Origin: Clostridiales bacterium
GTDB taxonomy: Bacteria > Bacillota > Clostridia > Lachnospirales > Lachnospiraceae
Direction: 5' to 3'
DNA: 32,613 nucleotides
Assembly: GCA_012519695.1 (NCBI GenBank)
Contig: JAAYPT010000082.1
Span: 1 to 32,613 of the forward strand
Under the pieces are notes generated by a model that saw only the letters and a list, made by a program, of their open reading frames with translations, was not told the origin of the DNA and ran no database searches. Below are positions 6,821 through 32,613 of this stretch, piece by piece. Within the stretch, counting starts at the first letter, position 1. Every line of letters begins with the position of its first letter. A program made the translations under genes and the position numbers.

Positions 6821-6924
6821 GAGTCCGGGCAGTGTCGTTTACGACTAATTTCTTCTCCGCGAGATGCGTATCCTTAGCGGAGCGTTTTTATGCAATAGGA
6901 CGTAATTTCCTATTGCATAAAAAA
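6821..6924 (-). repeat. Dispersed structured repeat, copy 1 (minus orientation)
   Basis: About 104 nt matching, on the minus strand, the repeat at 32487-32613. In order it has: a T-tract followed by ATGCAATAGGA pairing with TCCTATTGCAT; a stem CTCCGC/GCGGAG; GAAGAAATTA; a tetraloop hairpin GTCG-TAAA-CGAC; and a terminal CGGACTC. Compared with copy 3 it lacks about 26 nt before the last element. The repeat starts at the T-tract of the terminator of the upstream gene. It has no coding potential. Confidence 0.85.
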
Positions 6925-17892: not shown

Positions 17893-18945
17893 TTAATCAT
17901 TTAATAAACGAACAACACAAATCGGTGTACGATAAAAAGCATTTGAAATTTTAATTCCAGTTTTTGCTGAACTTGCATGTACAACTTGTCCACCGCCGAT
18001 ATACATTGCAACATGGCTGATACTCTTACCACTTCCATAGAAGAACAAATCTCCCGGTTTTGCCTGTGAAGCATCAATTCTTGTACCACAGTTCGCCTGT
18101 GCTTTAGATGAATGAGGTAAATAAATACCGTATTTTTCATAAATTCTCATGGTAAATCCGGAACAATCCACTCCGTTTGTAAGGCTTGTGCCACCCCAAA
18201 CATAACGGTTACCTACGAACTGGCATGCATATTGTATCATATCTACACGAACATCCGATACACCCTGTCCATACTGAAGTTCTGTTAATGTCATCGCCTT
18301 TGGCAACTCTTCTGCTAAAGTTACAAATTCTTTTGCAACATAACATTCATCACCATCTACATCTACTTTTATCCAATCACCTAAGTCTTCTAATACTTGT
18401 AATTCTTCGCCTTCAGCTATGGTTGTCCAGATACTGCATTCTGTATTGGGTTCGGTTCTTGCATTTAAAGTCATTGTATTGGAAGTCGCCATCGTAGACT
18501 TCACTTCTTCTGCCTTTTGTGCTGCCACATCTCCGGTAAATAAAAACTCACTTTTTACATATCCGGTAACATCACCTGACTGTATCTTGGTCCATTCTCC
18601 TTCGGTACCTAATATTTCACATCCGGCATCCTTTGGTAACTTTCCTACCAAATCATAATCTTCCCCGGCACCTTCACGAATATTCAAATGATTGTCAACA
18701 TTTGCAATTCCAAGATTTGTATATCCACATATTGTAGTTGCTGTAGCATCTGGATTTGCAGCTGTTGTATTCTGTGCTTCTACCGCAGACATTCCCACAC
18801 CTGCACCACTGGCAAGGCTCTCACCTAATACAGCGGTAATTCCTGCATTTACTCCATTTGCTGCTTCTGCATAAGTAGGAGCTATACTACAAATTGTAAC
18901 GCCTGCCATACAGGCTGCAATTATTTTTTTTACTTCATATCTCAT
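17893..18945 (-). CDS. Secreted SH3-NlpC/P60 cell-wall hydrolase
   Basis: A 350-residue exported peptidoglycan hydrolase. A signal sequence (about residues 5-29) is followed by an Ala/Thr-rich linker, two bacterial SH3 domains (about 85-137, with HLNIREGAGEDYDLVGKL, and about 157-210, with TLNARTEPNTECSIWTTI) and a C-terminal NlpC/P60 domain (about 232-350). Catalytic residues are in place: Cys261 in DCSGF, His311 in SHVAMYIG and His323 in VVHAS. The SH3 domains should bind the wall and the NlpC/P60 domain should cut stem peptides. I chose the ATG with GGAGG 6 nt upstream over an in-frame GTG twelve codons earlier. The gene has its own promoter and an unusual hairpin-bearing leader. Confidence 0.95.
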   Translation of the reverse strand: MRYEVKKIIAACMAGVTICSIAPTYAEAANGVNAGITAVLGESLASGAGVGMSAVEAQNTTAANPDATATTICGYTNLGIANVDNHLNIREGAGEDYDLVGKLPKDAGCEILGTEGEWTKIQSGDVTGYVKSEFLFTGDVAAQKAEEVKSTMATSNTMTLNARTEPNTECSIWTTIAEGEELQVLEDLGDWIKVDVDGDECYVAKEFVTLAEELPKAMTLTELQYGQGVSDVRVDMIQYACQFVGNRYVWGGTSLTNGVDCSGFTMRIYEKYGIYLPHSSKAQANCGTRIDASQAKPGDLFFYGSGKSISHVAMYIGGGQVVHASSAKTGIKISNAFYRTPICVVRLLND

Positions 18946-19010
18946 ATTTGACCTCCGCGCTGACTCTCCCGCTCGTACCACTCAAAATTTTTTCGCTAAT
19001 CGCGTAAACA

Positions 19011-19083: not shown

Positions 19084-19108
19084 GTTTTTTGTAACATTTA
19101 TGTAATAT

Positions 19109-28448: not shown

Positions 28449-28916
28449 CTAAAAATCAAAAGCTAAACGAATTAGCGCTATGTCTGACTTATTAAATATC
28501 ATTTCTTCTTCATCTTCTGTTTGAATGGTAACAGTATTTTCATCATATGCTGTTAAAATACCATAAAATTCTTTTTGTTTGTTAATTGCACGGTAAGTTC
28601 TAATCTCTAATTCTTTTCCCATGCTTCTTACATAATCCTTTTCTTTTTTTAATGGTCTTCCTAACCCCGGAGAGCTCACTTCAAAAATATAGGATTCTTC
28701 AATAAAATCTGCTTCATCTAGTAAATCACTCATTTTCCTGCTTACTACTTCACAGTCATCTACAGTGATTCCACCTTCCTTATCGATGTACGCACGAAGA
28801 TACCAGTTGCCACCTTCTTTTACATATTCCACATCTACCAATTCAAAATTATTTTCTTCCATGATTGGCAGTAACAATTCTTCCGTACGTTGTTCATACG
28901 TCTCTTTTCTTGACAT
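28449..28916 (-). CDS. rimP: Ribosome maturation factor RimP
   Basis: A 155-residue factor for 30S maturation. The N-terminal domain includes ELVDVEYVKEGGNWYLRAYIDKEGGITVDDCE and the family motif YIFEVSSPGLGRPLKKEKDY; a C-terminal Sm-like domain follows (about 88-155). AGAGG precedes the ATG. It is the first gene of the nusA-infB operon, behind a promoter and a leader hairpin. Confidence 0.97.
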   Translation of the reverse strand: MSRKETYEQRTEELLLPIMEENNFELVDVEYVKEGGNWYLRAYIDKEGGITVDDCEVVSRKMSDLLDEADFIEESYIFEVSSPGLGRPLKKEKDYVRSMGKELEIRTYRAINKQKEFYGILTAYDENTVTIQTEDEEEMIFNKSDIALIRLAFDF

Positions 28917-29047: not shown

Positions 29048-29117
29048 GGGTTTTACTGAAATTTTACAAATTTAAGCCTATCTCTTGCTCTCTTTCCTGA
29101 TTTCCAGATTCCTCCTA

Positions 29118-29146
29118 TTGCAAAAATATTACGATTTTGTTACAAT
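29118..29146 (+). promoter_or_regulatory. Promoter of the cysteine-containing micro-gene
   Basis: Plus-strand -35 TTGCAA and -10 TACAAT are exactly 17 bp apart. The predicted start of transcription is about 40 nt before the micro-gene start codon. Confidence 0.7.
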
Positions 29147-29197
29147 TCTTTTGTGATCAGCTGATACACATAAAAAAGAAATAAGGAGGACGAAACT

Positions 29198-29269
29198 ATG
29201 TGTTTTAATTTCAATAGCTGTTCCGAGTTATTTAATGCTATCTGCAAATATTTTAACCTCGGTTGTTAA
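29198..29269 (+). CDS. Putative 23-residue cysteine-containing peptide
   Basis: An ATG-to-TAA frame of 23 codons. The first eight residues are MCFNFNSC and the last seven YFNLGC preceded by K-rich context (ICKYFNLGC). An ideal AAGGAGG lies 8 nt before the ATG, a 17-bp-spacer promoter is upstream and a strong terminator begins 8 nt after the stop codon, so this is a complete one-gene unit. Cysteines are at 2, 8, 16 and 23; residues 2, 16 and 23 are in heptad register, and Phe, Leu, Ile, Tyr and Asn make up most of the rest. Net charge is about zero. It lacks a signal sequence and I do not recognise it. It could be a membrane-active or metal-binding peptide, or the coded part of a dual-function small RNA. 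Confidence 0.6.
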   Translation: MCFNFNSCSELFNAICKYFNLGC

Positions 29270-29276
29270 TTTTATT

Positions 29277-29302
29277 GCCCCGACAAATGTCGGGGCTTTT
29301 TT
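29277..29302 (+). terminator. Terminator of the micro-gene
   Basis: GCCCCGAC pairs perfectly with GTCGGGGC around AAAT and is followed by six Ts. It is the strongest terminator in the window. Its T-run is also the start of repeat copy 2. Confidence 0.95.
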
Positions 29303-29348
29303 ATGCAATAGGCAATTGCGTCCTATTGCATAAAAAACGCTCCGCTAA
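29297..29348 (+). repeat. Dispersed structured repeat, copy 2 (truncated)
   Basis: The T-tract of the micro-gene terminator runs directly into ATGCAATAGG, a CAATTGCG-containing loop and CCTATTGCAT, then ACGCTCCGCTAA. After that the similarity to copies 1 and 3 stops, so only the first hairpin and the left arm of the second are kept. Confidence 0.85.
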
Positions 29349-29392
29349 AGTGTAAAAATCATGATTTTCCTATTATATTTCAACAAATAAAA

Positions 29393-29430
29393 AATGCTGA
29401 AAGTATGATATACTCAATACTTTCAGCATT
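29393..29430 (-). terminator. Terminator after tRNA-Glu
   Basis: AATGCTGAAAGTAT pairs perfectly with ATACTTTCAGCATT around a 10-nt loop. On the minus strand it is followed by TTTTATTTG. It lies about 30 nt beyond the tRNA 3' end. The plus-strand side also has a T-rich end, so it may be bidirectional. Confidence 0.88.
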
Positions 29431-29461
29431 TTCTACGGGTTGGGCTATTCTAAATAGCTAG

Positions 29462-29533
29462 CAGCTCGTAGGGGAATCGAACCCCTGATTCCGCCGTGAG
29501 AGGGCGGCGTCTTAACCGCTTGACCAACGAGCC
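29462..29533 (-). tRNA. tRNA-Glu (anticodon CTC)
   Basis: A 72-nt cloverleaf on the minus strand. The acceptor stem GGCTCGT pairs with ACGAGCT (G1-U72 wobble), the anticodon stem CCGCC/GGCGG holds the loop CTCTCAC with anticodon CTC, and the T arm contains GGTTCGATTCC. The discriminator base is G and CCA is not encoded. The D arm GGTCAAGCGGTTAAGAC is typical of bacterial tRNA-Glu. It reads GAG codons. Confidence 0.95.
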
Positions 29534-29555
29534 ATGTTGAAACTCAACAATAAAG

Positions 29556-32469: not shown

Positions 32470-32491
32470 ACTTAAGGGGCACTCCCTTTTT
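32447..32491 (+). terminator. Terminator of the nitroreductase-PHP operon
   Basis: GAGTGTCCC pairs with GGGGCACTC (one G-U), with an inner AAGTCT/AGACTT stem, and is followed by CCTTTTTA. The 5' arm lies inside the last PHP codons. The T-run is shared with repeat copy 3. Confidence 0.85.
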
Positions 32492-32613
32492 ATACAATAG
32501 GAAATTGCGTCCTATTGTATAAAAAACGCTCCGCTAAGGAAGCACTCCTCGCGGAGAAGAAATTAGTCGTAAACGACACCGCTCGGGCGCGAAAGAGTCC
32601 GACAAGCGGACTC
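32487..32613 (+). repeat. Dispersed structured repeat, copy 3 (runs off the window)
   Basis: The longest copy. TTTTTATACAATAGG pairs with CCTATTGTATAAAAA. It is followed by CTCCGC/GCGGAG, GAAGAAATTA, GTCG-TAAA-CGAC, a GCTCGGGCGCG segment absent from copy 1, and GAGTCCG-ACAAG-CGGACTC at the window end. It begins in the T-run of the PHP terminator. No coding potential is seen. Confidence 0.85.

Follow-up and report, generated by a model that had tools for sequence, protein, structure and literature searches.

Does a 23-codon reading frame standing alone between rimP and a tRNA gene represent a real gene and, if so, what might its product do for the cell? The question arises in the 32,613-nucleotide stretch of DNA from a bacterium of the Lachnospiraceae that was analysed here (the window). 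An earlier reading, made from the sequence alone, had described around this frame a free-standing micro-gene with a promoter of 17-bp spacing, the Shine-Dalgarno sequence AAGGAGG and a perfect terminator, and each of these parts was found at the position first noted. The promoter is of the extended -10 type (29118..29146, plus strand), with the -35 sequence TTGCAA at 29118-29123 and, after the 17-bp spacer, the -10 sequence (TGt)TACAAT at 29141-29146. Over the spacer and -10 lies a WalR-type direct-repeat box, TATTAC-N5-TGTTAC (29127..29143, plus strand), with one mismatch to TGTWAH-N5-TGTWAH. Downstream are a dyad, TGTGATCAGCTGATACACA (29152..29170, plus strand), at the predicted 5' end of the transcript, where it probably forms a 5' hairpin and folds in both the minimum free energy (MFE) and centroid structures; the Shine-Dalgarno sequence (29183..29189, plus strand), 8 nt 5' of the ATG; and the frame itself, MCFNFNSCSELFNAICKYFNLGC (29198..29269, plus strand), which was assessed by its translation, its relatives and pN/pS. 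An intrinsic terminator follows (29277..29302, plus strand), made of a perfect 8-bp stem at 29277-29296 and a run of six T residues. As had been described, the micro-gene diverges from rimP (28449-28916, minus strand), whose product matches Pfam RimP_N, and a tRNA-Glu gene (29461-29533, minus strand) lies about 190 bp beyond the stop codon. The cysteines are indeed at positions 2, 8, 16 and 23, those in heptad register being 2, 16 and 23. The description as free-standing is borne out by the unit's own promoter, Shine-Dalgarno sequence and terminator and by relatives of the whole unit in other genera. At the level of sequence analysis, the micro-gene is thus confirmed as real and protein-coding, equipped with a promoter, a strong Shine-Dalgarno sequence and a terminator of its own.

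The evidence for coding comes from comparison with those relatives. For the window and its ten best DNA matches, pN/pS was 0.28 in frame and 1.13 in each shifted frame, which is the bias towards synonymous substitution that the sequence-only reading had proposed looking for, here seen in other genera; a set of 12 members picked by peptide motif gave 0.27 in frame. Within the same window-plus-ten comparison, differences at codon positions 1, 2 and 3 were 0.22, 0.15 and 0.43, so that differences are approximately two to three times as frequent at third positions as at the first two, and both TGT and TGC are found at three of the four cysteine positions. The low in-frame pN/pS, the greater variation of third positions and the exchange of TGT and TGC argue that selection acts on the peptide, and the family is shown by these substitution patterns to be under purifying selection for its amino-acid sequence.

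Within its own genome the micro-gene is single-copy in searches with the DNA, the peptide and a sequence model of the unit, and the next-best match of the model, on contig C67, is a different gene. When 29 genomes of the genus (its own and 28 relatives) were searched in the same three ways, the unit was absent from all 28 relatives and hence present in one of the 29. The two nearest relatives, with RimP proteins 95 and 97% identical, are without the unit between tRNA-Glu and rimP. The expectation that close relatives would conserve the frame and its cysteines was met with conservation in other genera only: genus relatives lack the whole unit, and therefore hold no decayed frame to judge. Nine places besides its own in the genus search were set aside as chance, five (L012, L013, L014, L019 and L020) by reading and the other four, located in reading frames of 116-452 aa, unread; the DNA match L010 in genome G005 was also due to chance. 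Six weak rows of the genus unit-model search yielded no member among the five that were read (that on C67, and L237-L240), and the sixth was rejected unread. One of them, L240 (genome G018, 1563-1655), has a 30-aa frame with a strong Shine-Dalgarno sequence that starts MCF, is otherwise unlike the family and was left uncounted.

A wider DNA search of 397 Lachnospiraceae genomes matched 21 at E <= 0.001, 16 of them real (own genome included) and five (G415, G249, G285, G097 and G168) chance on reading. The best DNA relative, in G204, is matched at 85% over query bases 1-173 (E 2.4e-50). A peptide profile and the unit model added six genomes (G052, G076, G155, G172, G268 and G372), giving intact relatives in 22 of the 397 genomes (own included; two of the same genus). 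This figure counts only genomes in which the ORF and Shine-Dalgarno sequence were read at the locus, presence of the latter having been a criterion when relatives were collected, and it excludes weak peptide-profile rows (E 0.005-0.05). It is a floor, because the unit model matched 93 genomes at E <= 0.01, of which the strong places were read; most of the weak ones, with E above about 1e-4, were left unread, and these were not counted. In genome G248 (L221, read as L208), a promoter and a remnant of a Shine-Dalgarno sequence without an ORF look like a decayed copy, which was not counted.

At the level of the order, nine of 295 genomes matched at E <= 1e-4 and five were real (own, G052, G426, G439 and G656); G426, G439 and G656 lie outside Lachnospiraceae, in two other families. 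The matches in G168, G586, G638 and G669 hold no such micro-ORF; those in G586, G638 and G669 are confined to the promoter, and the latter two have no micro-ORF with a Shine-Dalgarno sequence. A phylum sample of 348 genomes, searched at E <= 0.002, returned only the own genome and one chance match (L241 in G1033). Viral contigs gave no exact match to two patterns, and plasmids none. Four phage records matched, three of them partially (these were not read) and one at full length: MT836467.1 (L229), which is labelled 'Bacteriophage sp.' and encodes a family member. Judged from its coaE-, polA- and other bacterial-type ORFs, this record looks like a bacterial chromosome. These searches show a family with a patchy distribution across Lachnospirales. 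Horizontal transfer of the unit is inferred from this patchy pattern and from its absence between tRNA-Glu and rimP in the two nearest relatives; repeated loss is a possible alternative explanation of the same distribution.

What kind of peptide is encoded? Family members are 19-29 residues long and share the core M-C-F-N-F-x-S/N-C, in which Cys2 is sometimes lost. Every one of 32 peptides has M1, and conservation reaches at least 90% at F3 and Cys8. After the core comes an amphipathic stretch, for example SELFNAI or SDLLAMI, with further cysteines near its end; variants of this segment include SELFNAICKYFN, SDLLAMIKACFGC and SDLLSLLSKYC. Outside Lachnospiraceae, the peptides of G656 and G439 are MCNFDFASILEMLCQLCGFGC and MCNFDFASVLEILRQLCGFGC, respectively, and the tandem ORFs of G426 encode peptides of the form MFFTFSCADFIKYIRRCFR. 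In 26 of 37 distinct peptides, several of which are near-identical copies, no more than 4% of composition shuffles attained the helical hydrophobic moment, which was ordinary in the other 11. This amphipathicity favours binding of the micropeptide to a membrane. No known family had seemed to fit, and database searches agree: 30 of the 32 peptides (two were too short to scan) gave no match in Pfam, NCBIfam or PHROG at E 0.01, a profile of all 32 gave none in the PDB at E 1, and the window peptide drew one Pfam row only, whose E of 0.26 missed the cut-off by far. A literature search found no description for the peptide strings or the topic, and small-protein catalogues may hold the family unnamed. 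For example, Sberro et al. in 2019, a study cited in PMC13376575, reportedly described uncatalogued small proteins of the human microbiome, overlooked genes for fewer than 50 residues; the micro-genes belong to the same class and may sit unnamed there. This family of Lachnospirales micro-genes has apparently gone unrecognized so far.

Clues to when the peptide is made are found in the promoter. In relatives it is conserved as CTCCTATTG...TGTTACAAT, the core consisting of CTCCTATTG and after it TGTTACAAAATTGTTACAAT or a three-repeat version, and it contains a direct repeat, TRTTAC-N5-TGTTAC, with an 11-bp period that overlaps the -10. This repeat fits the WalR consensus TGTWAH-N5-TGTWAH, as given in PMC9210968, the window copy with one mismatch. 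A -10 was recognized in 30 of 39 units; two of these are inner ORFs that share a promoter, so the number of distinct promoters is 28. The box lies across the -10 in 26 of these 28, exactly in 19 and with one mismatch in seven (the window among them), and is absent at that place from L143 and L223. The nine units without a -10 by pattern are L144, the third ORF of L147, two ORFs of L224 and five of L230. Random upstream sequence gave the box exactly in 0.3% of cases and with at most one mismatch in 5.3%; the -10 was held fixed in this control because the second half-site coincides with the extended -10.

The same motif connects the micro-gene with a second gene in the window. T[AG]TTAC-N5-T[AG]TTAC occurs there twice and nowhere else: at the micro-gene and at 19091..19107 (minus strand), 7 bp before the TTGACA of the promoter of a gene for a cell-wall hydrolase with NlpC/P60 and SH3 domains (17893..18981, minus strand). 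The corresponding region was taken, as 16-kb stretches, from 16 of the 28 genus relatives, and 15 of these have the hydrolase gene. In all 15 the motif lies 7 bp before the TTGAC (-35) of that gene, and it occurs once per stretch, at that site only; the sixteenth stretch has neither gene nor motif. A conserved candidate operator is thereby supplied for the hydrolase gene in this genus. Against the strict TGTWAH-N5-TGTWAH, one of the 15 relatives' sites is exact, three have one mismatch and 11 have two. Because the hydrolase sites rarely fit TGTWAH and the window site has one mismatch, another OmpR-family regulator is possible.

In the genome as a whole, four sites have at most one mismatch to TRTTAC-N5-TGTTACAAT: that of the micro-gene, that by the hydrolase gene (19107-19091, minus strand), L243, and L244, which is inside a coding frame. 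At L243, on contig C63, three TTACAA-type repeats precede a reading frame that encodes at least 446 aa; this may be a further site of the regulon, and a promoter of the frame's own apparently lies further downstream. When up to two mismatches are allowed, the genome count of 16+25 barely exceeds the 18+18 of the reversed control, and no site in this genome matches TGTTAC-N5-TGTTAC exactly.

A model that we give about an even chance of being right is that the autonomous gene encodes a leaderless, amphipathic, cysteine-bearing micropeptide belonging to a WalR-type regulon for envelope homeostasis. A WalR-type (OmpR-family) regulator would bind the box, activating the hydrolase gene, where the box precedes the -35, and repressing the micropeptide gene, where it lies across the -10; activation and repression are assigned here by box position alone. 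When the regulator is inactive, whether through excess hydrolysis, envelope stress or growth arrest, the micropeptide might be derepressed as the hydrolase is shut down. It might then be made in quantity from an mRNA protected by its hairpin and act at the membrane, where its likeliest role would be that of a brake on hydrolysis or of an envelope protectant; its cysteines would conceivably serve in disulphide pairing or anchoring.

There is precedent for both arms of such a circuit. WalR~P in B. subtilis represses iseA and activates yocH (PMC7299342), and the regulator activates yocH, lytE and cwlO and represses iseA, which specifies a D,L-endopeptidase inhibitor (PMC7299342, PMC4478028). It is because WalR of B. 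subtilis both activates hydrolases and represses iseA that the micropeptide is proposed as a repressed envelope effector. The likeness to the WalR (YycF/VicR) regulon and iseA lies in a WalR-type box at the position expected to repress, and in a motif common to the micro-gene and an NlpC/P60 hydrolase gene. In contrast to this regulon, the hydrolase sites of most relatives are two mismatches away from TGTWAH, and the regulator here is putative. Furthermore, IseA differs by description from a leaderless 23-residue peptide, being a secreted D,L-endopeptidase inhibitor, and no sequence evidence was found that would link the family to IseA or to the phenol-soluble modulins.

A bolder form of the model, which we regard as speculative and rather unlikely, is that the unit is a portable brake. 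A complete gene within about 150 bp, it would be passed between genera without partners and plug, through its own operator, into the recipient's essential WalR-type circuit; whenever hydrolase output is off, a cysteine-bearing amphipathic peptide would directly restrain or protect the envelope, condensing an IseA-like function into approximately 20 residues. A recurring and apparently unannotated micro-gene of Lachnospirales thereby gains a family defined by sequence, together with a regulator and a process that can both be tested. Should the peptide act on the envelope, a WalR-type circuit, best known from Bacilli, would be seen to control a mobile micropeptide in these gut bacteria.

The genomic surroundings bear on these proposals and on their rivals. 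No neighbour recurs, as no Pfam family matches more than two of the 106 proteins flanking 28 loci. Crude ORF calls place the closest upstream gene in opposite orientation to the unit at 15 of 26 loci, and the closest downstream gene likewise at 19 of 27, so that in most cases the unit does not share an operon with its neighbours. Leader-peptide and attenuator readings were dropped, since the downstream gene varies and is opposed in those 19 loci. Some genomes carry tandem arrays of two to five ORFs, with three in tandem in G292 and two in G194. More than one ORF is also present in G052 and G172 (four each) and in G192 and G372 (two each). The ORFs of L147, L149 and L230 are repeated with their own Shine-Dalgarno sequences; the L230 array of G426 (about 1579-2060) consists of five near-identical micro-ORFs, each so equipped, with starts 101-111 bp apart.

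Such arrays would also suit a leaderless exported surface-active peptide, like the staphylococcal phenol-soluble modulins or leaderless bacteriocins, aimed at neighbouring cells or at the producer's own surface. Phenol-soluble modulins are leaderless amphipathic helices of about 20-45 residues exported by a dedicated ABC transporter. The family resembles them and delta-toxin in its tiny ORFs, its tandem copies and its leaderless peptides of 19-29 aa, amphipathic in 26 of 37 cases, and its patchy distribution is as expected for competition genes. It is unlike them in bearing cysteines, in its Phe-rich N-terminus, in having no known exporter and a different regulator box, and in giving no family match in Pfam, NCBIfam or PHROG. 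Against such a role, no recurrent transporter or immunity gene adjoins the unit among the 106 flanking proteins, and net charge is 0 or +1 in 30 of the 37 peptides, each of which has two to five cysteines. We consider a role of this kind unlikely.

The cysteines themselves raise the prospect of a cytosolic or envelope metal or redox micropeptide, serving as a thiolate ligand for Zn, Cu or Fe-S, and the sequence-only reading had named both membrane and metal binding among its suggestions. Two to five cysteines occur in every one of the 37 distinct peptides, and Cys8 is at least 90% conserved. The others are usual in the close subfamily and lost or shifted elsewhere, varying in number and spacing, with only two in the L230 array and in three L224 copies. 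The anticipated conservation of cysteine spacing therefore holds for Cys8 and not for the other cysteines outside the close subfamily, and of the two binding suggestions the membrane is favoured by the amphipathic stretch, whereas a fixed four-cysteine metal site is weakened by the shifting of cysteines. With a promoter box that points to the envelope as well, a metal or redox function appears quite improbable.

An alternative at the level of the whole unit is a type I toxin, as had also been suggested, with its antisense RNA encoded in the same unit. Like TxpA, BsrG and Fst of Firmicutes, the peptide is short and partly hydrophobic, and is encoded by an autonomous gene with its own promoter that is multicopy in some genomes (G172, G292 and G052). 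In the MFE fold of the window transcript, part of the Shine-Dalgarno sequence pairs with a CCUC inside the ORF; the centroid leaves it open, and relatives are without this CCUC. Unlike those toxin genes, the window's unit has no minus-strand promoter-like site in a simple consensus scan of 29048-29546, and the suggestion was left unsupported. Third codon positions in the family are free to vary, and 3' flanks are unshared among loci: the conserved block begins near TTTCCA, upstream of the -35, and ends at the stop codon, and the terminators that a simple scan detected after 17 of 39 family ORFs differ in sequence. Several of the 22 ORFs without a detected terminator are inner ORFs of tandem arrays. 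A type I toxin seems very unlikely.

The preferred reading of a membrane-acting micropeptide also calls on the RNA leader, where the 5' dyad is consistent with an mRNA-stabilising hairpin. In 18 aligned sequences its pair column 8-18 holds A-U six times, G-C six times, C-G once and G-U once, with four unpaired; 80.6% of cells pair, compared with at most 52.5% for slid structures. Two covariation counts were reached by 22 and 29 of 500 shuffles, the percentage paired by 140, the number of pairs changed on both sides by 343 and that of further pair types by 498, and RNAalifold on a longer alignment found no pair. With statistics so mixed, the covariation is only suggestive. A small RNA with an incidental ORF could draw on this covarying dyad, on the conservation of promoter and leader and on the stable fold of the window transcript (z -3.3), and is extremely unlikely given a pN/pS of 0.28 in frame only and the tandem repetition of ORFs with their own Shine-Dalgarno sequences (L147, L149 and L230); nor is the dual-function small RNA once proposed needed, because 3' ends differ between loci.

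The micro-gene terminator is followed directly, at 29297-29348, by a repeated palindrome of about 52 bp (ATGCAATAGG...CCTATTGCATAAAAAACGCTCCGC), which has further copies in the window at 6874-6924 and 32487-32537. It was found at 55 places besides the query, some of which are the two strands of one palindrome, corresponding to roughly 40 copies of what resembles a REP or MITE element.
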